A DNA stretch of 20,976 nt from a virus, in IMG/VR virus record IMGVR_UViG_3300046321_000525, positions 1-20,976 of that record. The stretch is one strand, 5' to 3'. Position 1 is the first letter of the stretch. Each line of letters opens with the position of its first letter. The position numbers and the translations under genes were made by a program. Under the pieces are notes generated by a model. The model was given only the letters and a program-made list of their open reading frames with translations. It had not been told where the DNA came from and ran no database searches. Below, one piece after another: positions 2,240 through 18,526 of the stretch.

Positions 2240-4712
2240 TAAAGAAAAAAAAGAAGGTTTTTTTAAAAGAAATGCGAAATTTTCTGATGATGCTTATACA
2301 TCATCAGAAATGGGCTTCGGAAAAAGAGCTCTCGGAATGTTTATGAGTGAACTTGAATCAAAAACTTTAGGAAGAATTACCGGAGGTAATCTTATATCCA
2401 CACATTTAAGATCAAAGAACTCAACACCCACAAAAGAAACATCACAAGAAAAAGATATTAAAGCCATTGAAATTCGAGGAGGAGATATCACAAAAAATAT
2501 CTCAAATATGAATAGACAAGTCGTTAGTGGTTTAAATATCATCAACAAATCTTTCAATAGGAACAGCAATGCCATCAGTTCAAAAATAAGAGAAACTAAT
2601 TTAGTTTTATCTTCAATGAAAGGTTTGCAAGAAGACACAAACATATCGTTAAGAGAGATTTATGACCTTCTAAACAAACAGAGCTATTCTACAACACAAC
2701 CTTCTATTATGGGTGGAATGTCCCCCATATCTAATAAACAAAACAAAAATGGCATTCTAGAAAACATTGTGGGTAATCTATTAGGTAATATAGGAGCAGG
2801 AGTTGCAGGGGGAGCTGCAGGGGTTGGTTTATTAACTGCAGGAAAAGGCTTGGCATCAAAGGTGTGGGGTGGTGCTAAAAATTTAGCAAAAAGGGCAGGT
2901 CCTATAGGGGCAGTGTTAGGTGCCTATGGTTTGGACAAACAAACAGGAATTATATCTAATGCAACCGAAAAAATGACTGGAGGTGTGTTAAACATGAATG
3001 ACACACCTTTTGAAACATGGAAAAAACTGAATAAAAAATTTGAATCAAAAGATAAATTAAATTCTTATGACAAAGGTTTATATAATAATAAAACTGATTC
3101 TTATGGCAAAGGAATTTATTCTAATGATTCAAATTTATATGATAAAGGTATATATGGTAAAAATTTCCAATCAAAAGATAAATTAACATTTGAAAATTGG
3201 GTTCGGGAACAAAAACCATCAAATAATGTTTCAGATCAAAAAATCAAAGCTAAAGAACTCATCTTTGACGCTGATAAAATTATATTCAAAGGAATGATGC
3301 CGGGAGATAAAATATTAGGAGGAAACAATATAAACGCCGGCCAGAATGATTATTCGGGTGTCAATCCTATGGGTGATACTTCTGGTTATACAACTCCTGA
3401 AGTTTATCCAGAAGAATCTGCAACTTCGAGACAATCTAATGATGCAAGAACTATGGGTGAAGCTGCAATTCAAGCTCAAGAAAATGCATCAAAAATAAGA
3501 CCTTCAATGCCTAATAATGAAGGTATATTGCCTCAATCATTCCTTAAACATATAGATAAAAATGAAGGTGGAGGAAATTATGACACTTTGTTCGGTCACG
3601 CGCAAAACAAAGGTAAATTCAAAGGAACGAAAGTTTCTGAAATGACAATTGGGGAGGCACTTAACTTCTCCAACCCAAAAGGTGAGTATGGTCAATCAGT
3701 AAAGAGCCAAATAGGAAGGGTAGCTACTCCTATGGGTCGTTTTCAAATTGTGGGAAAAACATTAAAGAGTTCAGTAAATGAATTAGGGTTAAACACAAAT
3801 GACAAATTTGATAAAACAAACCAAGAAAAAATTGCATTGCATTTAGCTAAAAATAGAATAAACTCAGCAGGATCTATGCAAGAAAAAATCGCAGGGCTGA
3901 GAAAAGAGTGGGAAGGTTTCAAAAATGTATCAGATCAAGATCTTGCAACAATAGTTAAAGATCTTGAATCACAAAAAACAGAACCAAAAGCATTAAAAGG
4001 ACCTGATAACAACCGAGTTTCAGGTGCTGCTAAAGTTAAAGAAAGATATGGGAAAAGAAGACCTAACAAACCAGATCAAAGTATGATTTCCCTCGCGGGG
4101 GCAGCTGGAGGGGCGGCGGGTATGAAAGAAATTACATTGACTTCAGGGCAAGGTAATTGGATATCACCTAGAGGAAGAGCTAAGGGGCAAAAATCAACAA
4201 TGCATTCAACAGGATTTGCAGTCGATGCTGACGGGTTTACCTCTAAAGAACAAAGATTGAAGTATATAGAAGAGTCAGCCGCCGGAGGTGCTAATGGCAT
4301 AGGCGTGTATAACGATGGTTCTATACATTCTGATAAGAGAAAAAAACCTTCTGTTTGGTCTTGGGGCGGTGATATTACACAAAAAGAAGCAGCAGCTGCT
4401 GCGGCTAGAGGAAGAGCAAGAAGAGGTCAAATACAAAAAAATACAAATAATTCTGCAAAGATAAATGAAAAACCTTTCATCGCCCCCCCCAACCATCCGT
4501 TAATGAAAAGACCTAATATAACAAAAGGAGCAGAGCTGAATCAACGTTCATTGAAAAGCACAGTGAATCGATCTCCTTCTCCTGTTGTGCAAAATATTGT
4601 AAACAACAATAAAAAAACAGAGAGCACAGGATCATCCCAAATAGATTCGAGAAATCCTATGCCCGCTTTGGATGAATTATTTCTCAAAATGCTTGAGAAA
4701 AAGGGAATTTAA
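2232..4712 (+). CDS. Large virion protein with lysozyme-like and M15-like cell-wall hydrolase domains; candidate tape measure or hub-associated protein
   Basis: 826 residues. Residues 1-170 are polar and helical. About 175-235 is a Gly/Ala-rich hydrophobic stretch (NIGAGVAGGAAGVGLLTAG), which could insert into a membrane. Residues 278-312 hold short YDKGLY/YGKGIY repeats. From about 435 there is a lysozyme- or transglycosylase-like region: FLKHIDKNEGGGNYDTLFGH with Glu445 as candidate catalytic acid, then TPMGRFQIVGKTL. From about 630 there is an M15-type peptidase-like domain: STMHSTGFAVDAD (His658, Asp665 as metal ligands), then GIGVYNDGSIHSDKR with His699. Cutting glycan and peptide bonds would suit a protein that opens the cell wall during DNA injection. 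Its place directly after a frameshifted chaperone-like gene is where tape-measure genes sit in many phages; that role is inferred. A run of seven C at 4484-4490 lies in the coding sequence. It converges on the gp32 gene with overlapping stops. Confidence 0.7.
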   Translation: MADKEKKEGFFKRNAKFSDDAYTSSEMGFGKRALGMFMSELESKTLGRITGGNLISTHLRSKNSTPTKETSQEKDIKAIEIRGGDITKNISNMNRQVVSGLNIINKSFNRNSNAISSKIRETNLVLSSMKGLQEDTNISLREIYDLLNKQSYSTTQPSIMGGMSPISNKQNKNGILENIVGNLLGNIGAGVAGGAAGVGLLTAGKGLASKVWGGAKNLAKRAGPIGAVLGAYGLDKQTGIISNATEKMTGGVLNMNDTPFETWKKLNKKFESKDKLNSYDKGLYNNKTDSYGKGIYSNDSNLYDKGIYGKNFQSKDKLTFENWVREQKPSNNVSDQKIKAKELIFDADKIIFKGMMPGDKILGGNNINAGQNDYSGVNPMGDTSGYTTPEVYPEESATSRQSNDARTMGEAAIQAQENASKIRPSMPNNEGILPQSFLKHIDKNEGGGNYDTLFGHAQNKGKFKGTKVSEMTIGEALNFSNPKGEYGQSVKSQIGRVATPMGRFQIVGKTLKSSVNELGLNTNDKFDKTNQEKIALHLAKNRINSAGSMQEKIAGLRKEWEGFKNVSDQDLATIVKDLESQKTEPKALKGPDNNRVSGAAKVKERYGKRRPNKPDQSMISLAGAAGGAAGMKEITLTSGQGNWISPRGRAKGQKSTMHSTGFAVDADGFTSKEQRLKYIEESAAGGANGIGVYNDGSIHSDKRKKPSVWSWGGDITQKEAAAAAARGRARRGQIQKNTNNSAKINEKPFIAPPNHPLMKRPNITKGAELNQRSLKSTVNRSPSPVVQNIVNNNKKTESTGSSQIDSRNPMPALDELFLKMLEKKGI

Positions 4713-5620
4713 TCTTCTAGATCCTTTAGAAAGTTTGCAAGTTCATCATCGTCATTAGACGCAGGTGTTTCTTTCTTACTTTCTTTTGCTTCAGTTGTTT
4801 TATCATCCCATGGCGGAGTGTCCTTCACATCTTCAGCTTTCTTAGTTGCCTTAGTCGCCGTTGTTGATAAAACTCGCTCAAGCTTTGTTTTCAATTCATC
4901 ATATGTTTTAAAGTTTTTAGCATCATGAAATTCCTTCAACTTATATTGTTGAACCCAAATTTTTTCAATAGCTTCGTCTTCTTGAGCTAAAGGTGCTGGA
5001 TCAGAAAATTCTGACTTGTCATAGTTTCTGTAACCATCAACTTGGCGAATCTTCAACTTAAAATCAGCACCTTTCCAAAAATCAAAAGGATTAACCGCTT
5101 CTTCATCTTCAAATTCAGGATGCATCGATGCTTTGATCTTGTCAAATATCTTTTTACCGTATTGATATAAGAAAACTTTACCTTCATTTTCAGGTGCTGA
5201 AGAGTCTTTAATTACTAGAATATTTGAGATGTATGAGAGTCGGCGCTTTTGCTTTCTCGCTTGATCTCTTGCGGGAGATTTTTCATCTGTTGTGGAATTC
5301 CACAACACCGAATTGTATTCAGAAACAGGATCTGGATTACCGGCACCTAATGTTGTTCTTGAATTTTCAATATACCATAACCCTGTTGGCCCTTGAAATC
5401 CATGAGTGAACATTTGAATCCAAGGAACATCTTCACCGTCAACAGCGGCCAAGAATCTAATAACTGCCATTCCGTTACCTGCTTTATCAACAGTAGGTTT
5501 CCAGAAACGTTTGTCTTCGTCAGAATTTCCTTGGGGATTATTTATTTTTTCCAATTCCTTTGAAATATTATCCAAAAGGGCTTGGCTATTTTTCTTTAAA
5601 GCTGAAAAGCTAGTATTCAT
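4709..5620 (-). CDS. 32: Single-stranded DNA-binding protein, T4 gp32 homologue
   Basis: 303 residues, close to T4 gp32 (301). The core matches gp32: GLWYIENS, then RRLSYISNILVIKDSSAPEN, EGKVFLYQYGKKIFDKI and FWKGADFKLKIRQVDGYRNY. The basic N-terminus (MNTSFSALKKNSQALLDNIS) fits the cooperativity (B) domain. The acidic C-terminus (DDDELANFLKDLED) fits the tail that recruits replication proteins. The protein coats ssDNA in replication, recombination and repair. There is no cysteine anywhere: the positions of the three zinc-binding cysteines of T4 gp32 read Ser, Asp and Ser, while His73 remains, so zinc binding is probably lost. CGGAG lies 8 nt before the ATG. The 74-nt AT-rich leader separates it from gp59, as in T4, where gp32 has its own promoters; a TTGAAC with a loose AT-rich -10 is present, but I could not fix a promoter. 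Confidence 0.95.
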   Translation of the reverse strand: MNTSFSALKKNSQALLDNISKELEKINNPQGNSDEDKRFWKPTVDKAGNGMAVIRFLAAVDGEDVPWIQMFTHGFQGPTGLWYIENSRTTLGAGNPDPVSEYNSVLWNSTTDEKSPARDQARKQKRRLSYISNILVIKDSSAPENEGKVFLYQYGKKIFDKIKASMHPEFEDEEAVNPFDFWKGADFKLKIRQVDGYRNYDKSEFSDPAPLAQEDEAIEKIWVQQYKLKEFHDAKNFKTYDELKTKLERVLSTTATKATKKAEDVKDTPPWDDKTTEAKESKKETPASNDDDELANFLKDLED

Positions 5621-5694: not shown

Positions 5695-6282
5695 CTATTC
5701 ACAGGTATTTATCATAATCTGATACTTAATTATCTCAAGAGCTTTTGATTTATCATAGTTCATAAAGGGTAAATATTTTCTGATTTTTAATTCAAAATCC
5801 CCCCACACAAAATGACCACCAAATTTAACTGAATATCTATCCATTAGATTCAGTTCGCTCAATAGAATTATTGTAGATTCTAAAGACAAATGTTTACCTA
5901 AACATAAATTTATAATGTTAGGTAAGTTATTATTTTCTATTTTTAATTCTTTTTTCAGATTAAGATTAATTATATCATCTTTGAAATGATATAACAAGGC
6001 ATTATTTCTTTTTGCCCAATTTTTATATATTTTTTCACTCTCTTCATCATACACAAGAGATCCTATCCAAATCTTTTCTTTAATCAACATATTAGATATT
6101 AGAAACCCTTTAGGGTCTATATGTTTAGAAAGTTTTAGAAAAAAAATCTTATCTTTTCTTGTGTTAAAGGATTTCAAGGAAAGACCTTTTGTCTTTCCTT
6201 GATATTTAAAGAAATCATATTTTGCAGAGGAAAAATGAAATTTCAACGCCATGAATAATTGATATGATTCAAATGCTGTCAT
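5695..6282 (-). CDS. 59: Replicative helicase loader, T4 gp59 homologue
   Basis: 195 residues (T4 gp59 has 217). N-terminal region YDFFKYQGKT...NTRKDKIFFLKLSKHI, then FLISNMLIKEKIWIGSLV, corresponds to the T4 segments YDVIKYNW, RRDKYFFQKLSEKY and LIFISNLVANQDAWIG. A C-terminal all-helical half follows, with DRYSVKFGGHFVWGDFELKI. gp59 loads the gp41 helicase onto gp32-coated forked DNA. Gene order 33-59-32 is as in T4. The ATG at 6282 shares one base with the gp33 stop (TAATG), so translation is coupled. The protein is somewhat shorter than in T4 but has no obvious missing domain. Confidence 0.9.
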   Translation of the reverse strand: MTAFESYQLFMALKFHFSSAKYDFFKYQGKTKGLSLKSFNTRKDKIFFLKLSKHIDPKGFLISNMLIKEKIWIGSLVYDEESEKIYKNWAKRNNALLYHFKDDIINLNLKKELKIENNNLPNIINLCLGKHLSLESTIILLSELNLMDRYSVKFGGHFVWGDFELKIRKYLPFMNYDKSKALEIIKYQIMINTCE

Positions 6283-6506
6283 TATATTGGTAATCTAGAA
6301 ATTTTCTTTAGAAAATTTAAATCTTCTGCTTCTTCTTCAATCTTTGCTTTAAGTGCAATTGATTTTTTAATAAGAATTCCTATGTTTTCTATTTCATAAT
6401 TCTTTTTTTCACACCAAAGAATTACAGCTTCAATATAGGTTAGGTTATTATTAACTACATATTCTTCGATTTCTTTAAAGAAATCGGGAGGTGTTTGTAA
6501 AGCCAT
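6282..6506 (-). CDS. 33: Late-transcription co-activator, T4 gp33 homologue
   Basis: 74 residues, against 112 in T4. The segment FFKEIEEYVVNNNLTYIEAV followed by ILWCEKKNYEIENIGILIKK aligns by eye with T4 gp33 (MVEEFGMSYLEATTAFLEEN and onward). In T4, gp33 binds the RNA polymerase beta-subunit flap and links the polymerase to the sliding clamp at late promoters. The C-terminal extension that carries the T4 clamp-binding tail is short here (NFLKKISRLPI). Whether a clamp-binding motif persists is uncertain. The start is set by a TAATG overlap with the upstream small gene. Its position immediately before gp59, as in T4, strongly supports the call despite its small size. Confidence 0.8.
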   Translation of the reverse strand: MALQTPPDFFKEIEEYVVNNNLTYIEAVILWCEKKNYEIENIGILIKKSIALKAKIEEEAEDLNFLKKISRLPI

Positions 6507-6724
6507 TATAATGTTTTAATAAAAAATGATTGTTTCGGAGTTACAGAGAAGTTATAATCCATAACTTCTTTTGTGTCTCTATATGACTTAATGTTGATTT
6601 CTTTAACATTATCAGGAACTACATATTTGAAGGAGTTTCCCGCTGCTGCAGGAAGAGAAGCGGCTGATGCCAATCCTCCGATTAAAAATGCAGGCATTTT
6701 TTTAAATAAATTTCTTCTATTCAT
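6506..6724 (-). CDS. Small exported protein with twin-arginine signal peptide
   Basis: 72 residues from the ATG at 6724, which overlaps the upstream stop (TGATG); an in-frame ATG three codons upstream at 6733 is less likely because AAGGA would sit only 2 nt from it. The first 29 residues form a signal peptide: MNRRNLFKKMPAFLIGGLAS with the RRNLFK twin-arginine motif, a hydrophobic core and an AxA-type cleavage site near LPAAAG. The mature part is about 43 residues, with no cysteine, ending in QSFFIKTL. I recognise no family. It sits inside the gp33-gp59 operon, where an exported protein is unexpected. It could alter the host envelope or be an anti-superinfection or lysis-timing factor, but that is speculation. 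Confidence 0.7.
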   Translation of the reverse strand: MNRRNLFKKMPAFLIGGLASAASLPAAAGNSFKYVVPDNVKEINIKSYRDTKEVMDYNFSVTPKQSFFIKTL

Positions 6725-7371
6725 CAATCCCATAGTCCTTCATAATATTTTCCAAACAATATAAATCCGTTAGTTTTTCTTTTTTGATATGCATCAAAAC
6801 CAACTCTATCAAAAACATAAGTTGATTCAGGCTTTTTTTTCATTTCAAAATATTTACCATCATCTATAGGTTCAAAATCATACAACAATTCACCTGTATG
6901 AAATTTATCTTCATACGAATCATTACATTTTACCTCAAAGGCCCATATCATTTCATTCAAAACATAATCCCAACGAGCATGAAGTTTTTCTTCTTTTTTT
7001 TCTGCATTATCAATGTCGTTATCTCGCAGTTCTTCAGGTACATCACTTTCTTCTACATAAGGAGAACCTTGTTTCTGCGTTTTTAACTTCTTTAACACAG
7101 GAAGAATGATCATAGCCAAGGTATGATCAGCACCCCATACGTCATAATTATCTATTTGGATTTCAACTTCTTGTTTTCTATATTGACACCAATTAAAAAA
7201 ATCTACTACTTTGATTTTTTTAAAAAAATCAAACACAGCTTCACCTGTAGTTGTAAGATGATATTGTTTTATTTTATTATATTTTTCGACTTCACCCAAA
7301 AAAGGCAATCTTGCTAAAATATCATATACTATATTTCTATATAAAGGCGGTGGTCCTATAAAAACTTTCAT
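6724..7371 (-). CDS. Conserved phage protein of unknown function
   Basis: 215 residues. It contains VDFFNWCQYRKQEVEIQIDN, then YDVWGADHTLAMIILPVLKK, GSPYVEESDVPEELR, WDYVLNEMIWAFE and a C-terminus RKTNGFILFGKYYEGLWD. From memory this pattern belongs to a conserved uncharacterised family widespread in T4-like phages; the C-terminal YYEGLWD and DHTLAxIILP segments are the most characteristic. No catalytic motif is evident. It is the first gene of the gp33-gp59 operon and lies just downstream of the tmRNA gene, so it may depend on read-through from the tmRNA promoter. GGAG lies about 8 nt before the ATG. Confidence 0.75.
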   Translation of the reverse strand: MKVFIGPPPLYRNIVYDILARLPFLGEVEKYNKIKQYHLTTTGEAVFDFFKKIKVVDFFNWCQYRKQEVEIQIDNYDVWGADHTLAMIILPVLKKLKTQKQGSPYVEESDVPEELRDNDIDNAEKKEEKLHARWDYVLNEMIWAFEVKCNDSYEDKFHTGELLYDFEPIDDGKYFEMKKKPESTYVFDRVGFDAYQKRKTNGFILFGKYYEGLWD

Positions 7372-7394
7372 ATCAATTCTCCAAATGAAAATAA

Positions 7395-7421
7395 CGGTTT
7401 ATTCTGTTTCCAAGAAAACCG
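7395..7421 (-). terminator. Terminator-like hairpin after the tmRNA
   Basis: On the minus strand CGGTTT (7421-7416) pairs with AAACCG (7400-7395), with TCT/AGA continuing the stem with small bulges. It is followed by TTATTTTC. The T tract is interrupted, so termination may be partial, which would let the tmRNA promoter also feed the downstream operon. It could alternatively be a processing element at the 3' end of the tmRNA coding piece. Confidence 0.5.
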
Positions 7422-7424
7422 CCA

Positions 7425-7705
7425 AAACTCATGTTGGATTAAGCAGCTAGTGCCAATCCACGAGGAGCAAAATTATCGTTTGCTGTTATGTTTTTGCGCT
7501 TTACATAGTCGCCTATGATAATCTCCAGTTGCCTATTGTACACAGGTCGATTCTATTTCATCCCCATCAGCAACACAACAGAACCTTATCCGTTCTCTTC
7601 AGACTCAGGCGTTAACATCACGGACCTGATTGTTGTGTTGTTGGTGGAGATGCGGGAGAACTGCCCTCCCGGTCCCAAATGGTTTTCAGTTTCCTTCAAC
7701 GATTA
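7425..7705 (-). ncRNA. ssrA: Circularly permuted (two-piece) tmRNA, tag ANDNFAPRGLALAA
   Basis: Read on the minus strand, the acceptor piece comes first: T-arm CGGGAG-GGCAGTT-CTCCCG (7671-7653), then CATCTCC (7652-7646) and ACCA (7645-7642). The coding piece follows: GGGGATG (7565-7559) pairs with CATCTCC to give a 7-bp acceptor stem with G-U at the third pair, the alanine identity pair of tmRNA. After AATCGACC come a CATAG-GCGA-CTATG hairpin (7517-7504) and CATAACA, then the tag frame from GCA at 7483 to TAA at 7439: ANDNFAPRGLALAA, ending in the LAA proteolysis signal. GGATT/AATCC (7459-7455/7440-7436) closes a hairpin at the tag end. Between the pieces, a 10-bp inverted repeat (7640-7631/7580-7571) extends the acceptor stem, as expected of a precursor that is cut out. 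Acceptor-before-coding order is that of alphaproteobacterial tmRNA. The product would rescue stalled ribosomes. The mature ends are estimated. Confidence 0.92.
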
Positions 7706-7710
7706 TGAGT

Positions 7711-7741
7711 TATTTATATGATATTAATTATTTTTTGTCAA
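7711..7741 (-). promoter_or_regulatory. Consensus sigma70-type promoter of the tmRNA gene, with embedded T4-late-type box
   Basis: TTGACA (7741-7736), a 17-nt spacer, then TATAAA (7718-7713). The -10 region reads TATAAATA, which is also the T4 late promoter consensus, so the gene might be read early by host polymerase and late through gp33/gp55. The predicted start is near 7705, just upstream of the tmRNA acceptor piece. The TGA stop of the preceding gene lies inside the -35 box. Confidence 0.8.
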
Positions 7742-8007
7742 GTAATTTTATGCTTCAACAATTCAGGAATTTCCTGACCTTGCTCTGTTAACAATCTAAC
7801 TGCTTCTAAACGATACAATTCTTGACATTCTTTAAACCCGATAACATATCCTTGCTGAATTAAAGATTCTGCTTTATCTTTCAATATTGCTTGACAATTC
7901 ACCTCTATGAGAGAATAACATTGAAGGTATCCTCGACGAAACATCCAAATTGCAAACATTCCAAATATGATCCAAACGATGATAATCATCCAAATTTCTA
8001 AAAACAT
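7738..8007 (-). CDS. Small membrane-anchored protein of unknown function
   Basis: 89 residues from the ATG at 8007, which shares a base with the upstream stop (TAATG); an alternative in-frame ATG at 8025 would overlap the upstream gene by 19 nt. Residues 1-24 (MFLEIWMIIIVWIIFGMFAI) form one N-terminal transmembrane segment, followed by WMFRRGY, whose arginines suggest a cytoplasmic C-terminal part. The soluble part is helical (QAILKDKAESLIQQGYVIGF), with two cysteines. I do not recognise a family. Its stop codon lies in the -35 box of the tmRNA promoter. Confidence 0.65.
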   Translation of the reverse strand: MFLEIWMIIIVWIIFGMFAIWMFRRGYLQCYSLIEVNCQAILKDKAESLIQQGYVIGFKECQELYRLEAVRLLTEQGQEIPELLKHKIT

Positions 8008-8531
8008 TAATATCCACAACTCCATTCATCGATTGTAGTTTTTTCTTTAGTAATTTTAACTTTCACATCAACGCCGTACATATTTTCAAGAGTATCATTA
8101 GGAATAAAATTAATAAGTGTTGAGATAGCTACAATTCTTTCTTCTATCTCAACAACCCTTTCTTCGCCATACTTTTCTACTAACCCATCATATTCTTGGA
8201 TTTTGTCATTATAATATGTATCTTCAAATCTGTTTTTATAAACATAGCTGCCTGGTTTAGAGAAGGGATTTTGACCATCATATGAATCTTCGTCTTTGTA
8301 ATTATTTTTATCTATATCAGTAAAAAAACTTATTTCTGTCAAAGTAAAAGAACAAGCGTCCCCATCATTGAAACCTGGAATATATTGACACCACGAGATC
8401 ATATATATTTCAGGAACTTCTTTGAGAAAGTTTGTCAAAGATTCTTCTAAAATCTTTCTGGATTTTTCATTTAATTCTTTTTGAAGCTGTTCAATTTCTT
8501 TTTTGGCATTTTCAATATCTTGTAAATTCAT
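8007..8531 (-). CDS. Conserved phage/bacterial protein with N-terminal coiled coil, unknown function
   Basis: 174 residues. Residues 1-35 are a charged coiled coil (IENAKKEIEQLQKELNEKSR). The core contains MISWCQYIPGFNDGDACSFT followed by LTEISFFTD, a W-QY-P-FNDGD-C pattern I have seen in uncharacterised phage and bacterial proteins without known function. The C-terminal helix (IEERIVAISTLINFIPNDTL) ends in a short beta-rich tail. AAGGAG lies 7 nt before the ATG, so this gene has a strong ribosome binding site of its own. It precedes the small membrane protein with a TAATG junction. Confidence 0.7.
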   Translation of the reverse strand: MNLQDIENAKKEIEQLQKELNEKSRKILEESLTNFLKEVPEIYMISWCQYIPGFNDGDACSFTLTEISFFTDIDKNNYKDEDSYDGQNPFSKPGSYVYKNRFEDTYYNDKIQEYDGLVEKYGEERVVEIEERIVAISTLINFIPNDTLENMYGVDVKVKITKEKTTIDEWSCGY

Positions 8532-8541
8532 AATAATCTCC

Positions 8542-8934
8542 TTAATCTATAATTATTTCTTCTAAAGATATACTTCCGGGAAAAGTAGTTTTTGTTCTAT
8601 TAATAAATTTTCCTTGTCCCTTCGCAAGCATCCAATCCTGCAATGGAAGATTACACAACCATTGTTCAATTGTAGGAATTGAACCAAGGTCTTCCATTAC
8701 ATGGTCCTCTCCAATATCTCTAACTGAGATTGCCTTGCCGTCAGAATTGACAATAGTTTGACCAAATACTTTCTCGACTAGAAAAATACCAAAAGAAGAG
8801 TGAAGAATTGCCCGATGCCTAACATCAGCAAAAGCAGATTTTGTGGAATCAAAAAAATCATGGATGGGCATGTAATCTTCAATTACTCCTCCATATCTTT
8901 TTACTGAATTTTTTGCATGAATGTAAGGTTTCAT
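8542..8934 (-). CDS. DUF6915-like conserved phage protein
   Basis: 130 residues. The N-terminal two thirds (KPYIHAKNSVKRYGGVIEDY, MPIHDFFDSTKSAFADVRHR, AILHSSFGIFLVEKVFGQTI, then VRDIGEDHVMEDLGSIPT) match from memory a widespread short phage/bacterial family (DUF6915). It has several conserved histidines (HDF, RHR, LH, DHV), which could be metal ligands. The biochemical function is unknown to me. The C-terminal 25 residues look lineage-specific. The ATG shares a base with the stop of the kinase gene (TAATG), so the two are translated together in the RNA-repair run. Confidence 0.75.
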   Translation of the reverse strand: MKPYIHAKNSVKRYGGVIEDYMPIHDFFDSTKSAFADVRHRAILHSSFGIFLVEKVFGQTIVNSDGKAISVRDIGEDHVMEDLGSIPTIEQWLCNLPLQDWMLAKGQGKFINRTKTTFPGSISLEEIIID

Positions 8935-9395
8935 TATGTGTAAATCCTTATAATTTTAGAGAAACCTTCATCTAATGTTGGTTCTTCAAGTTTCATATTT
9001 GAAAGAACATATTCAGGAATTGTTTTTCCTGGACGATTAGAAAGACGTTTTTTATGATCGTCTTTGTCGCCACATTCAACTACATAACAAATTACATCAT
9101 AACCCTTTAACAAAGAAAGCTTAGATTTCCTAGAATTTTTTGCAAGGTTTGTCTGATCCCAAATGAAAGGATATTTGTTTTCAATGAAAAATTTAACATC
9201 ATCTTTCATTGCTTTTGTTGATATGTCTATTACAGATTTGAATACGGAATCATAGGTGCTGTTTAAATAAGAGGCAATTTTTTCAATTTTATCATCAGTA
9301 GATGCGAGCCACATTCCTGGCTCAAGATGATCTCTCCTAAATGTTGTTTTGCCTGATCCAGGCAATCCAACCAAAAAATAACAAACGGGTTTCAT
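8934..9395 (-). CDS. Stand-alone polynucleotide 5'-kinase (T4 PseT N-domain-like)
   Basis: 153 residues from the ATG at 9395, which overlaps the upstream stop as ATGA; the in-frame ATG at 9422 would overlap the upstream gene by 31 nt. The P-loop is GLPGSGKTT (residues 10-18), as in the kinase half of T4 Pnk. ASTDDKIEKI (Asp34/Asp35) occupies the position of the T4 general-base Asp35. WDQTNLAKNSRK resembles the T4 SDTNLNPERR lid region. The reaction would be phosphorylation of 5'-OH RNA or DNA ends. T4 fuses this to a 3'-phosphatase; here the phosphatase is a separate gene at 11225-11692. The arginine corresponding to T4 Arg38 is not obvious, so substrate range may differ. Confidence 0.8.
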   Translation of the reverse strand: MKPVCYFLVGLPGSGKTTFRRDHLEPGMWLASTDDKIEKIASYLNSTYDSVFKSVIDISTKAMKDDVKFFIENKYPFIWDQTNLAKNSRKSKLSLLKGYDVICYVVECGDKDDHKKRLSNRPGKTIPEYVLSNMKLEEPTLDEGFSKIIRIYT

Positions 9396-9871
9396 ATTAT
9401 AAACCTTTCTTTCAAATTCCACATGTTGAGGGCTTTTTTATACTCTCTATACGTAATTCCTAAATCAAAACTAACTAATATTAATCTTTGATCATCAATA
9501 AAATTTGCATCATCAAAACAAATCCAATCACTTTCTCCGTTTTCTTCCATCCATGTATTAATTGAGGTTAACCTACTTGGATGAATTCTGTCATTTGGAA
9601 ATTCAGTTTTACCATTACTTTGATTGTATCCAAACAAATATTCTTTCAACAAACCGTGTTGAACTAACCCTTCATGAACAGAGGGGTTAGTTCTATTGTT
9701 GTGATATGTGTTGGTAACAATTTTTGCACCGCTCATTTCACACAAACTATTAAGACAAGCAATTGCAATATTGCTTGCGTATGAAAAATTTAAAGAACAA
9801 TTAATATCAATAAAATACATGGGTGTTGGAATAACAGGGCCATCAATGTCCAAAAATATAATTTTCTGCAT
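9392..9871 (-). CDS. HAD-family protein of the RNA-repair type (HAD_SAK_2-like)
   Basis: 159 residues. It opens MQKIIFLDIDGPV, with the HAD nucleophile pair Asp8 and Asp10. Motif II is near IVTNTYHN, and a C-terminal WICFDDANFIDDQRLILVSF then GITYREYKKAL resembles the HAD domains named for 'Swiss Army Knife' RNA-repair proteins. It would be a phosphatase acting on a phosphorylated nucleic-acid end or nucleotide. Its place between RNA ligase and polynucleotide kinase supports an RNA-end-healing role. The gene starts with a TAATG overlap and ends with an ATGA overlap. The exact substrate cannot be read from the sequence. Confidence 0.75.
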   Translation of the reverse strand: MQKIIFLDIDGPVIPTPMYFIDINCSLNFSYASNIAIACLNSLCEMSGAKIVTNTYHNNRTNPSVHEGLVQHGLLKEYLFGYNQSNGKTEFPNDRIHPSRLTSINTWMEENGESDWICFDDANFIDDQRLILVSFDLGITYREYKKALNMWNLKERFII

Positions 9872-10038
9872 TATTTTTGTATTTCCTTTATTGCTGCAAT
9901 CGCTTCACATTCAAATTGCTCTCCCATTAAACAATCCTCAGGTGATTTACTTTCACATATTAAACATTTATCAGAACTAGAAACTTTCGCTGAAAAACAT
10001 ATTGCCTTTGCAACTCTATTAATCTTTCTTTGATTCAT
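9871..10038 (-). CDS. Small cysteine-containing protein (55 residues)
   Basis: This short gene fills the gap between RNA ligase and the HAD gene. It begins at the ATG at 10038, inside the last 20 nt of the ligase gene, with a modest GTGAG 5 nt upstream, and ends with TAA at 9873-9871 sharing a base with the HAD start. The sequence begins MNQRKINRVAKAICFSAKVS. It has a CLICESKSPEDC segment, a possible zinc-binding knuckle, with a helical C-terminus (EAIAAIKEIQK). The tight junctions at both ends are the main evidence that it is expressed. Function unknown. Confidence 0.6.
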   Translation of the reverse strand: MNQRKINRVAKAICFSAKVSSSDKCLICESKSPEDCLMGEQFECEAIAAIKEIQK

Positions 10039-11215
10039 TATATCTCACATTATCAAAAAACAATGATTTTACTTCATTAAAATTTTTATTGTTAGCACAT
10101 TTTTTAATAATGTTCTCAATAATATAATTATTAATATCTTGTCTGGTAAATGTTTCATCCCAATATTTAAAAATAATAGAGGAAAATTTTGATATGTTGT
10201 TTTTCTTATCAGTAAAATTTTTTGATAATGCAAAGTCTTTTTTTGAAGAATGAGCAATAATCATTTTATTAATCAAAACATATATTAAATCAGCAGATAA
10301 TAAAATACTATCAATCAAATCTGAAGAATAATTTAGAACTTTTTTTCGATCTTGTTCTGGCAAAACTGGCAAAAGGTCATCTAATTGTTTTTCTAAAATT
10401 AAAGACACGACATCTTTTTCGGAATCAAGCATTGATTTGACTTTGTGTATTTGCAAATACCAATCACATTTGATTTTATACATTTCACCTGAATCAAATT
10501 TTACAACAATACCTTCAACGTCTTCCATTGTTCTAATTTTATTAACAATGGATTGCATGGTGATATCTTCAAAATAATATACTCCAACCAAAGGTATGTC
10601 ATAATATTCAGAATCTTGAACCAAAGTATCATATGATATATAATTTCCGCATGTGTTACCACGAATAGCAACAAGAATTAACTGATCTTCACCATAATCC
10701 AAAACAATGCGATTTTTTGATGAACACCATTCAAATATTGGTGTGTAATTAGCTTTAATCCATTCTCGACAAAATTCGTAGTAACCTGGATTGTTATCAA
10801 AGAATGTTTGAGCCTGTTGGGCAACATCAGTTGCTCCCATTTTTGTCATGAGAACAATTCTTTCTTTTTCGGTACACATATCAAATCCACAGGCAGACAC
10901 CATCGACCCATCAATTTTATTCATAATAAAATGGGGTTGTGAAAAATCGATTGCATCAATCGAGCAATCTTGACGTTCATTTATATTAAAAAATTTATGA
11001 TATCTGCGATTTATCAATTTTCCTGTTATAGAATCAAAAATCAAACCCCTGCATTCCCTTAAAAAAGGAAGAGATGGATGGTTTGATGGAAAGGTATCAT
11101 TTCCCAAAACAACATAGTTAATAACAGTGTAATCACCCTTGTTAACCACAACAAATTCATCCCTTCCTTCGATGTGAGGGAGAATGTCTTCAATACATTT
11201 TATAGATGGGAACAT
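10019..11215 (-). CDS. rnlA: RNA ligase 1 (T4 RnlA homologue)
   Basis: 398 residues (T4 Rnl1: 374). The sequence RECRGLIFD lies upstream of motif I IMNKIDGSMVS, where Lys100 is the predicted AMP-accepting lysine (T4 Lys99). Motif III-like PIFEWCSSKNRIVLDY follows, then ISYDT, motif IV-like VEGIVVKFDSGE and motif V MYKIKCDWYLQIHKVKS, corresponding to T4 FKIKSDWYVSLHSTKS. The C-terminal 110 residues are helical, as in the T4 Rnl1 C-domain that favours tRNA, though diverged. The enzyme seals 5'-phosphate and 3'-OH RNA ends; in T4 it repairs tRNA cut by host anticodon nucleases. AAGGA lies 6 nt before the ATG. The neighbouring kinase and phosphatases supply the matching end-healing steps. Confidence 0.93.
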   Translation of the reverse strand: MFPSIKCIEDILPHIEGRDEFVVVNKGDYTVINYVVLGNDTFPSNHPSLPFLRECRGLIFDSITGKLINRRYHKFFNINERQDCSIDAIDFSQPHFIMNKIDGSMVSACGFDMCTEKERIVLMTKMGATDVAQQAQTFFDNNPGYYEFCREWIKANYTPIFEWCSSKNRIVLDYGEDQLILVAIRGNTCGNYISYDTLVQDSEYYDIPLVGVYYFEDITMQSIVNKIRTMEDVEGIVVKFDSGEMYKIKCDWYLQIHKVKSMLDSEKDVVSLILEKQLDDLLPVLPEQDRKKVLNYSSDLIDSILLSADLIYVLINKMIIAHSSKKDFALSKNFTDKKNNISKFSSIIFKYWDETFTRQDINNYIIENIIKKCANNKNFNEVKSLFFDNVRYNESKKD

Positions 11216-11224
11216 GATTAATCC

Positions 11225-11692
11225 TTATTTGTTTGGTGCCACTTGCAATACACGAATGCCTTGATCTCTGATAGCGTCTACAACACCTTGCCTATCATCA
11301 AACCACAGGTCAGGTCTACCATGTTCTCGAATAATATCATTCAACAAATCAACTTTTGTAATATAATCTGGACGTGAATCGTTTTTCTTGCGCATGTATA
11401 AAATGCCTTGAAATATTTCTGATGCTGGTATATCTTCATTATAATCTTGCATGTCCAGATGCTGCATTAACCAGTCTTCTGTCTGTTTTCGGTGAGTATC
11501 GGTTCTGCCCGTGCAATATATAACATCATTGTAAATTCTGAGACTGTCATGTAAATCCACCATTTCTTCTATTGGTGTGTCTAGAACCATTTCGTCAAAA
11601 AACTTCATCCAATTTTTTGGTTTATTTTTAATGTGATGTAATCTATGCTCACAATTAGCTAATGTACCATCAATATCAAATACAACAATCAT
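11225..11692 (-). CDS. Stand-alone polynucleotide 3'-phosphatase (T4 PseT C-domain-like HAD enzyme)
   Basis: 155 residues. It begins MIVVFDIDGTLANCEHR, with the HAD nucleophile Asp6 and general acid Asp8. Motif II is IYCTGRTDTHRKQTEDWL, parallel to T4 VVSGRESG. The C-terminal DLWFDDRQGVVDAIRDQGIR followed by VLQVA closely parallels T4 Pnk [20 protein letters not shown] and WQVA. It would remove 3'-phosphate or 2',3'-cyclic phosphate from RNA ends before ligation. In T4 this activity is the C-terminal half of PseT; here the kinase half is encoded 2 kb away. It is translationally coupled upstream (TAATG) and lies 9 nt from the ligase gene. Confidence 0.85.
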   Translation of the reverse strand: MIVVFDIDGTLANCEHRLHHIKNKPKNWMKFFDEMVLDTPIEEMVDLHDSLRIYNDVIYCTGRTDTHRKQTEDWLMQHLDMQDYNEDIPASEIFQGILYMRKKNDSRPDYITKVDLLNDIIREHGRPDLWFDDRQGVVDAIRDQGIRVLQVAPNK

Positions 11693-14186: not shown

Positions 14187-14215
14187 GTTTTAACAAAATG
14201 ATATGATGTTGTCAA
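14187..14215 (-). promoter_or_regulatory. sigma70-type promoter of the 57-residue protein gene
   Basis: TTGACA (14215-14210), 17-nt spacer, TAAAAC (14192-14187). The -10 box is weak, but the -35 is exact and the position is right. The TGA stop of the synthetase-like gene lies inside the -35 box. Confidence 0.5.
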
Positions 14216-14907
14216 CTCATAGATAATACTACAACACGATCCAAACCAATTGCGATTTCACACACTTTGGTGTCATTTTCGGAATCAAAATCATTTCTAA
14301 TAGAGCAGGAAGCAATTTCCTTCCATTGGTTATTATCTAACAACACCTCTATATCCAACGTTGAGTCTGAATATGAAGGAATTCTATCACTAATAACAAC
14401 TCTATGTGTTCGGTTTGTAAATCTGGAGATTTCTTTACTAATATTTTCCACCAAAACTTTACGATAATCAGCTTTAGTTGAACCTGAATATATGCATTGA
14501 AATTCTAACTGATAAAATTCGTTGTATCTTAATTTTGCAGCAGTTGCACCATCTCCCAATTCTCTTCTAAAAGATTTTCCGCTCTGCCATACACACAAAG
14601 GAAGTTTTTTATTTAAAGATTTGGCATATTCATAACTTGATGCTGTTGTTTCAGCTCGAAGGCACAAAAATGAATTTGAGATTTCATGATTGGTGACAAA
14701 AACATCTTTATCATTATATTCTTTTGAAACATAATGAGAAGGAGTTAATAGAGGGCCCTCAACACGATAAAATTCCCATGCATTATTCAAATTTTTCAGT
14801 GTCTGTTTTAACACCAAAACAATTCTTTTTTGAAACATTTCCCGAAATTCAATTTCTTCTTCATTCCAAAAAGGGAGTTGACCTATATTTGAATATAAAG
14901 GTTTCAC
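14212..14907 (-). CDS. Class II aminoacyl-tRNA-synthetase-like catalytic core, GlyRS-like
   Basis: 231 residues. It contains FLCLRAETTASSYEYAKSLN, parallel to the GlyRS LRPETAQG region, then LPLCVWQSGKSFRRELGDG as motif 2 (FRRE), RYNEFYQLEFQCIYS (parallel to RxREFxQxE), WKEIASCSIRNDFD, and motif 3 EIAIGLDRVVVL at the C-terminus. These motifs bind ATP and the amino acid in class II synthetases. The protein ends just after motif 3, so it lacks the C-terminal anticodon-binding domain of a full GlyRS. It may be a free-standing activating enzyme, a truncated synthetase, or a synthetase paralogue acting on another substrate. The start overlaps the HD gene as ATGA. Family assignment is by motif recall only. 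Confidence 0.75.
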   Translation of the reverse strand: MKPLYSNIGQLPFWNEEEIEFREMFQKRIVLVLKQTLKNLNNAWEFYRVEGPLLTPSHYVSKEYNDKDVFVTNHEISNSFLCLRAETTASSYEYAKSLNKKLPLCVWQSGKSFRRELGDGATAAKLRYNEFYQLEFQCIYSGSTKADYRKVLVENISKEISRFTNRTHRVVISDRIPSYSDSTLDIEVLLDNNQWKEIASCSIRNDFDSENDTKVCEIAIGLDRVVVLSMS

Positions 14908-17576: not shown

Positions 17577-17939
17577 TTATTCCTCGATAATCATATAATT
17601 TTCAGGATTTGTTTTCAATTGTTGAATAACAGGTTCAAATGAATCGTGAGTATCATTTAATGACGCAAGAGACATGTTATCATCAAATTTGTGGTTTCCT
17701 GCACATCCAAACATATTAAATTTTGTTTTTAAATCGTAAGATAAAATTGAAAATGAACCATCATATCCAAAAGATCGAGGACTTATAAGCATTTCAATTT
17801 CTGTAGGAACTTTTTCAATCTCACACAAAACACCGAGGCAACAATATTCATCATTACTGCTTCGTAAAAAATTTGAACCTTTCTTATATTTGCCTGATTC
17901 TAATGCTTCAATCCAATGATTTAATGTTTCACGTTTCAT
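17577..17939 (-). CDS. Conserved phage protein (W..AL.SGKY...CCLGVLC type)
   Basis: 120 residues. It begins MKRETLNHWIEALESGKYKK and has SNDEYCCLGVLCEIEKV; the pattern W-x2-AL-SGKY followed by YCCLGVLC is, from memory, typical of a family of short phage proteins with no settled function. The C-terminal part includes SLASLNDTHDSFEPVIQQLK, and L-LND...F-IA-I endings are common in that family. The paired cysteines may bind metal. The gene starts with an ATGA overlap of the BTLCP gene stop. Confidence 0.75.
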   Translation of the reverse strand: MKRETLNHWIEALESGKYKKGSNFLRSSNDEYCCLGVLCEIEKVPTEIEMLISPRSFGYDGSFSILSYDLKTKFNMFGCAGNHKFDDNMSLASLNDTHDSFEPVIQQLKTNPENYMIIEE

Positions 17940-18526
17940 GTTTTTAAACCTTTCAAAATTTCGTTATATTTTTCTTGGGAAATCATAGGCTCCCATTTTC
18001 GGATGTGTTGATCCGATAAGCGTTTAATAAAAATATAATTTGATTCCTCGATTGCCCATATTTCATCTGTCAAAGAATCGAGAATAAACATTCCTTCTGT
18101 TGAATCGATAAGAAGCACCGTATGAAGTTCATTTTTTTCTTTGTTATATACTACTGTAAGAGGTAGTCGATTTTTGGGTAATCCTGCTTCAACTAAAAGA
18201 TTTCTTTTTGCAAGAGCAATATCTTCACAATCCCCTTTATTTTGGAAGGGAAAAGTCCAAAATTCCTCAACACCGAAAAGTTCTTTGTCTGAAATTTGTT
18301 CTATTAATGCATTCACATCGTTGTTAATTTCGTATATTGCTGAATGAGTATTTTGTTCAAGAACAATAGGGTCGGCGAGAGTATCATAATTCAAACATTC
18401 CCGTTTGTTATCATCACAAAATTGGATATAACCCACCGGAGGAAATATCACATTATTATATTCTTCACCTTTAACGATTGCAGGTGAAAATAAAAAACAT
18501 GTTGCGAGAAGAATAGGTTTAAGCAT
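17936..18526 (-). CDS. Bacterial transglutaminase-like cysteine proteinase (BTLCP family), exported
   Basis: 196 residues. The first 20 (MLKPILLATCFLFSPAIVKG) are a signal peptide. The catalytic region is FPFQNKGDCEDIALAKRNLL, with Cys100 as nucleophile, LHTVLLIDS with His135, and MFILDSLTDEIWAIE with Asp150. This Cys-His-Asp set and the GDCEDxALAKR box mark the BTLCP family, common in alphaproteobacteria. Known relatives (LapG) act on periplasmic parts of outer-surface adhesins. In a phage, an exported copy might change the host envelope or surface adhesion; that is inference. Gene ends are tightly packed, overlapping the upstream membrane gene by 8 nt and the downstream gene by 4 nt. Confidence 0.85.
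   Translation of the reverse strand: MLKPILLATCFLFSPAIVKGEEYNNVIFPPVGYIQFCDDNKRECLNYDTLADPIVLEQNTHSAIYEINNDVNALIEQISDKELFGVEEFWTFPFQNKGDCEDIALAKRNLLVEAGLPKNRLPLTVVYNKEKNELHTVLLIDSTEGMFILDSLTDEIWAIEESNYIFIKRLSDQHIRKWEPMISQEKYNEILKGLKT

Follow-up and report, generated by a model that had tools for sequence, protein, structure and literature searches.

The window analysed here, a 20,976-nt stretch comprising positions 1-20,976 of IMG/VR virus record IMGVR_UViG_3300046321_000525, encodes a DNA end protector, tail tube and baseplate hub proteins, gp32, gp59 and gp33 homologues and a T4-type RNA ligase, and judged by these proteins the contig is a fragment of a T4-like phage. Nucleotide comparison with phage records yielded nothing informative. 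A circularly permuted tmRNA gene occupies 7705-7393 on the minus strand, within a 366-nt intergenic gap (7372-7737), and lies upstream of the following genes:

6724-7371, minus strand: PHROG 11543 gene, the next gene downstream of the tmRNA
6282-6506, minus strand: gp33-like late-transcription coactivator (Pfam Trans_coact), conserved as a neighbour downstream of the tmRNA
5695-6282, minus strand: gp59-like helicase loader
4709-5620, minus strand: gp32-like single-stranded DNA-binding protein

Between the PHROG 11543 gene and gp33 lies a 75-aa ORF (6506-6733, minus strand) with no family match, the start of which (MNRRNLFKK...) resembles a secretion signal. A search for the PHROG 11543 neighbour returned one viral contig only, L002, which is near-identical to the window (2 mismatches over 4,102 nt) and carries an identical tmRNA gene. 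Several other genes on the minus strand were recorded in passing. A set of RNA-repair genes encodes a kinase-like AAA_33 protein (8934-9422), an RNA ligase 1 that is closest to that of Caulobacter phage Cr30 at 38% (10019-11215) and a HAD protein resembling the 3'-phosphatase part of polynucleotide kinase (11225-11692), such that kinase and phosphatase are separate genes; no link of the ligase and kinase to the two-piece tmRNA is claimed from proximity alone. A class II aminoacyl-tRNA synthetase core encoded on its own (14212-14907) has 46% identity to Brevundimonas and Caulobacter jumbo phage proteins, its best NCBIfam match being a glycine--tRNA ligase far below the cut-off, and a bacterial transglutaminase-like cysteine proteinase (Peptidase_C93; 17936-18526) has an apparent signal peptide.

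Identity, structure and tag of the permuted tmRNA

The gene was matched over its full length by Rfam model RF04321 (tmRNA_permuted; 7705-7439, 101.6 bits, cut-off 47, E = 4e-19) and by RF01849 (alpha_tmRNA; 7745-7393, 83.2 bits, cut-off 50, E = 1.6e-21). As both curated cut-offs are exceeded, its identity as a circularly permuted tmRNA of the alphaproteobacterial type is confirmed at the sequence level. The earlier note on this DNA had read a complete tmRNA of this type in a T4-like phage from the letters and had suggested the alpha-tmRNA covariance search that supplied the second match. ARAGORN called no tmRNA in the window at its default threshold; with the threshold lowered (-ps50) it reported a permuted one whose tag and domains agree with those given below. 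The parts of the gene are as follows:

7642-7706, minus strand: acceptor (tRNA-like) piece, presumed to begin at 7706, with the P2 5' strand, GGAC, T-arm, CATCTCC, discriminator A and encoded CCA
7653-7671, minus strand: T-arm, its 6-bp stem (CGGGAG/CTCCCG) closing a 7-nt loop (GGCAGTT)
7566-7641, minus strand: 76-nt linker, closed in the predicted fold by a helix of 10 bp that continues the acceptor stem
7393-7565, minus strand: coding piece, with the acceptor 5' strand GGGGATG, D-like region GAAATAGAATCGAC, tag frame and 3' hairpin
7439-7483, minus strand: tag frame ANDNFAPRGLALAA and stop codon TAA
7393-7423, minus strand: 3'-terminal hairpin GGAAACAGAA, placed by the RF01849 alignment and matching the alpha_tmRNA 3' end

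In the direction of the gene, the acceptor piece thus ends at 7642 and is followed by the 76-nt linker, predicted by analogy with known two-piece tmRNAs to be removed, and by the coding piece from 7565. The landmarks previously given for the CATCTCC-ACCA end (7642), the GGGGATG start (7565) and the tag frame (7483-7439) were exact, as was the placing of the gene in the 366-nt gap; the minus strand had been left implicit, and the 3' end is corrected from 7425 to nearer 7393 because the alpha-type hairpin at 7423-7393 belongs to the gene. All seven acceptor-stem pairs form, ACCA is encoded, and the third pair is the G-U alanine identity pair (G3-U70) that had been described earlier, which is also present in 117/117 viral loci among the matches listed. 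Cofolding of the two pieces gave acceptor pair probabilities of 0.98-0.99 and an energy moderately below that of shuffled sequence (z -2.3).

Relatives were collected by scanning IMG/VR for GGGGNNGAAATAGRATCGAC, which returned at least 120 stretches, with upstream CCA ends located at nearly all of them. Covariation was assessed against shuffles in 43 distinct T4-like loci among the matches listed, with the site chosen without use of pairing. Acceptor pairs 5 and 6 and T pairs 1-3 were paired far above the shuffles by compensatory change, in agreement with what the earlier note had expected of homologues; T pair 1, for example, was paired in 42 of the 43 loci with four pair types (shuffles: mean 16.9, maximum 25). 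In acceptor pairs 1-4 and 7 the scan pattern fixes the 5' letter, and covariation there says little.

The tag ANDNFAPRGLALAA is, from its sequence, a conventional degradation tag, ending in LALAA with a ClpXP-type signal. All 37 T4-like phage tags recovered among the matches listed end in AA, 35 of them in LAA, with a variable middle, although the tag search demanded an AA-type ending, such that the 37/37 count is not independent and leans toward AA. The strict tag pattern fits 37 of 54 relatives among the matches listed, and a tag is visible in some others. A tag of the phage's own choosing, as had been suggested, is not borne out by these endings, and a tag of new purpose was likewise rejected, the tags ending as ordinary degrons with the degradation signal conserved. 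The exact tag had no match, as a back-translated pattern with TAA stops in contigs of at least 3 kb, in 84,980 GTDB bacterial and archaeal species genomes, which precluded naming a host from the tag. The acceptor stem GGGGATG was found in four scattered alphaproteobacteria, too few to name a host.

In place of the usual 5-bp T stem with a 7-nt loop, the window has a 6-bp stem with a 7-nt loop. Among the matches listed, the 5-bp stem is present in 112/117 viral loci and the 6-bp stem is a minority variant found also in L018, L069 and L078. It is not treated as excluding membership of the class, since both curated Rfam models match over the full length, and a sequencing slip is an unlikely origin given that in L002 both strands of the stem carry the identical paired insertion. 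The variant is the probable reason that ARAGORN at default settings does not call the gene. Some phage copies can thus escape default tmRNA finders, and the published count of 53 two-piece structures in 18,146 surveyed phage genomes (PMC9004378) may be low. With the extra pair the acceptor/T helix would be 13 bp instead of 12, which could weaken the fit to EF-Tu or the ribosome.

This altered geometry would also suit a decoy that inhibits host trans-translation by titrating SmpB, for which a precedent exists in the tag-less tmRNA of mycobacteriophage DS6A, a proposed SmpB-titrating inhibitor (PMC4131195, PMC11915505). However, most relatives retain the tag frame, resume region and LAA end, for which a decoy would have no use, and the G3-U70 pair is kept throughout the listed loci; this explanation is considered very improbable. 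A replacement role, in which defence by the host or takeover by the phage would destroy or titrate the host tmRNA while the copy of the phage escaped by virtue of its divergent T-arm, is less strained and still unlikely. The T-arm of the window is indeed unlike that of most relatives in its stem and its GGCAGTT loop, and T4-kind RNA-repair enzymes (RNA ligase 1, the 3'-phosphatase-like HAD protein and the kinase) are encoded in the window, but most phage relatives have an ordinary 5-bp T-arm, and the T-arm is therefore no general route of escape.

Neighbourhood and descent

In all 58 sampled IMG/VR loci with a detectable gp33, the tmRNA precedes gp33 on the same strand, and in 50 it lies within 1.6 kb of it (among the matches listed, a count that takes in the window and its near-duplicate L002). 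Of 20 contigs that lacked a gp33 close to the tmRNA, 3 contained gp23 and 1 contained gp33, and consequently not all tmRNA-bearing contigs are claimed to be T4-like. A tree of 148 tmRNAs, of which 116 were viral and 32 bacterial, grouped the window with L020 and L009 at support values of 0.84 and 0.82, within a viral clade of 13 members (support 0.93). As the window nests among viral tmRNAs, the gene appears to have a phage history, and a fresh capture from a host was ruled out by the same nesting.

Among isolates, ssrA is annotated upstream of gp33 in the Melnitz and Mosig genomes, and Rhizobium phage RHph_I1_18 matches the permuted model. Matches to permuted tmRNA that carry no annotation in the records were also seen in HTVC008M (KC465899 145161-145370), Ruegeria phage DSS3P8 (KT870145 9093-9391) and Caulobacter phage CcrBL9 (MH588546 149054-149359). 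Two contigs of Acetobacter pomorum genome G015 (C163 and C100) gave two strong permuted tmRNA matches, one of which could be prophage-borne. The model had no match in phiM12, phiN3, Atu_ph07, Cr30 or RL38J1, and as phiM12, phiN3, Cr30 and RL38J1 are T4-like phages of alphaproteobacteria, the tmRNA is, on this distribution, dispensable.

This patchy distribution among isolates, together with the failure of default ARAGORN to call the gene, could be taken to indicate a degenerate passenger of host origin with no function. Such a reading is already largely refuted by the compensatory stem changes in relatives, and is further opposed by the conserved synteny with gp33, the nesting among viral tmRNAs and the conservation of the promoter described below, leaving it with next to no credibility.

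An apparent hybrid early and late promoter

Two promoter elements were found upstream of the acceptor piece:

7736-7741, minus strand: TTGACA, a sigma-70-type -35 box that overlaps the stop codon of ORF 7738-8025, which lies upstream
7711-7718, minus strand: TATAAATA, a late -10 box of the T4 type, separated from the -35 box by 17 nt, with a 5/6 fit to the sigma-70 -10 box

T4 late promoters are not known to have a -35 box. Here a perfect TTGACA stands 17 nt before TATAAATA, and for this reason the element is termed a hybrid and not simply a late promoter. The latter sequence, which is the T4 late promoter consensus (PMC5587285), has its sole copy in the window at this site. The site is unlisted by a general promoter scan, which demands T at the last -10 position, and a dedicated scan with controls was used.

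Across 52 distinct T4-like viral tmRNA loci among the matches listed, TATAAATA is present upstream of the acceptor piece in 32 and the full TT[GT]AC[AT]-17-TATAAATA arrangement in 27, ending 65-73 nt from the CCA end in the latter. The 27 spacers are all different, with a mean identity of 40%, and shared descent of the flanking sequence therefore does not explain the motif. The hybrid promoter was found in 0/10,800 shuffles and at 0/32 alphaproteobacterial tmRNA genes; its exact form is absent at about half of the sampled loci and from Mosig. The Melnitz genome contains 25 TATAAATA sites, of which that at the tmRNA alone is preceded by a perfect TTGACA at 17 nt, a second having a 5/6 -35 box, and in the 164-kb contig G002 a perfect box is present at 2/21 sites, one of them at the tmRNA. 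Away from the tmRNA, the hybrid early/late pattern was noted at Melnitz MZ577097 12156 and at G002 7697 (minus strand).

For Melnitz ssrA only an early promoter has been given (PMC9004378), and no description of this combination of promoter elements was found in the literature covered, which included few subscription papers. It is somewhat more probable than not that T4-like phages of alphaproteobacteria and their relatives have a purpose-built hybrid promoter at the tmRNA that is usable by both the sigma-70 polymerase of the host and the late polymerase of the phage, providing rescue throughout infection. The recurrence of the promoter yields a testable prediction of timing for the role of phage tmRNA, and Melnitz, which has the promoter, is cultured.

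Proposed role and relation to known systems

The preferred explanation, to which a probability of about 0.75 is assigned, is that this is a functional, phage-owned permuted ssrA gene with an early and late promoter, serving ribosome rescue with a conventional tag. It builds on the observed gene, its conserved structure, tag, position and promoter motif. As for the timing of transcription, the host polymerase would transcribe the gene early from the sigma-70 -35 box, and the gp55/gp33-modified polymerase would do so again late from the T4-type -10 box, gp33 itself being encoded shortly downstream. In processing, the linker would be excised, and pairing in the acceptor stem and P2 would hold the two pieces together. 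Charging would be by host alanyl-tRNA synthetase by way of the G3-U70 pair, and host SmpB would bring the tmRNA to ribosomes stalled on broken mRNAs, where the stalled protein would receive the LALAA tag and then be degraded by host proteases. The benefit may be that rescue capacity is kept high during the destruction of host mRNA and the synthesis of phage protein. Supplementing the host tmRNA appears favoured over replacing it, since all the tested identity elements are kept and the gene is apparently designed to be expressed in both phases.

Whether the permuted form had been described in a T4-like phage was left open in the earlier note, and the possible novelty does not hold, as two-piece alpha-type ssrA was published in 2022 in the Methylophilales (OM43) phage Melnitz and likewise in Pelagibacter phage Mosig (PMC9004378). 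That study found 53 two-piece structures among tmRNA-bearing phage genomes, 50 of them from marine or aquatic samples, and a 2025 study, in which RF04321 was built, listed 79 unique phage tmRNAs (PMC11915505). Permuted phage tmRNA has thus been known as a kind since 2022, and the window gene is a further example. It shares with Melnitz (MZ577097) and Mosig (MT647606) a permuted alpha-type tmRNA in a T4-like myophage, upstream of gp33 in the gp33-gp59-gp32 region, and shares with Melnitz the hybrid TTGACA-17-TATAAATA promoter, which Mosig does not have. The window differs from both in its own tmRNA sequence, its 6-bp T stem, and the PHROG 11543 gene and small ORF between tmRNA and gp33. With the alphaproteobacterial two-piece tmRNA (RF01849, merged RF04321) it has in common the piece order, acceptor stem, G3-U70, GGAC and T-arm, ANDN tag start and 3' hairpin, whereas the phage location, 6-bp T stem and phage promoter set it apart, as does the exact tag, which is absent from the 84,980 GTDB species genomes under the back-translated TAA-stop pattern. 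The tmRNAs of Bxz1, Wildcat and phage G resemble the window gene in being phage-encoded, but they are of the standard one-piece form and are not known to be permuted. Mycobacteriophages Bxz1 and Wildcat and Bacillus phage G are among the tmRNA-bearing phages already reported (PMC4131195). The gene is a divergent addition to a class of phage tmRNA that is widespread in viral contigs.
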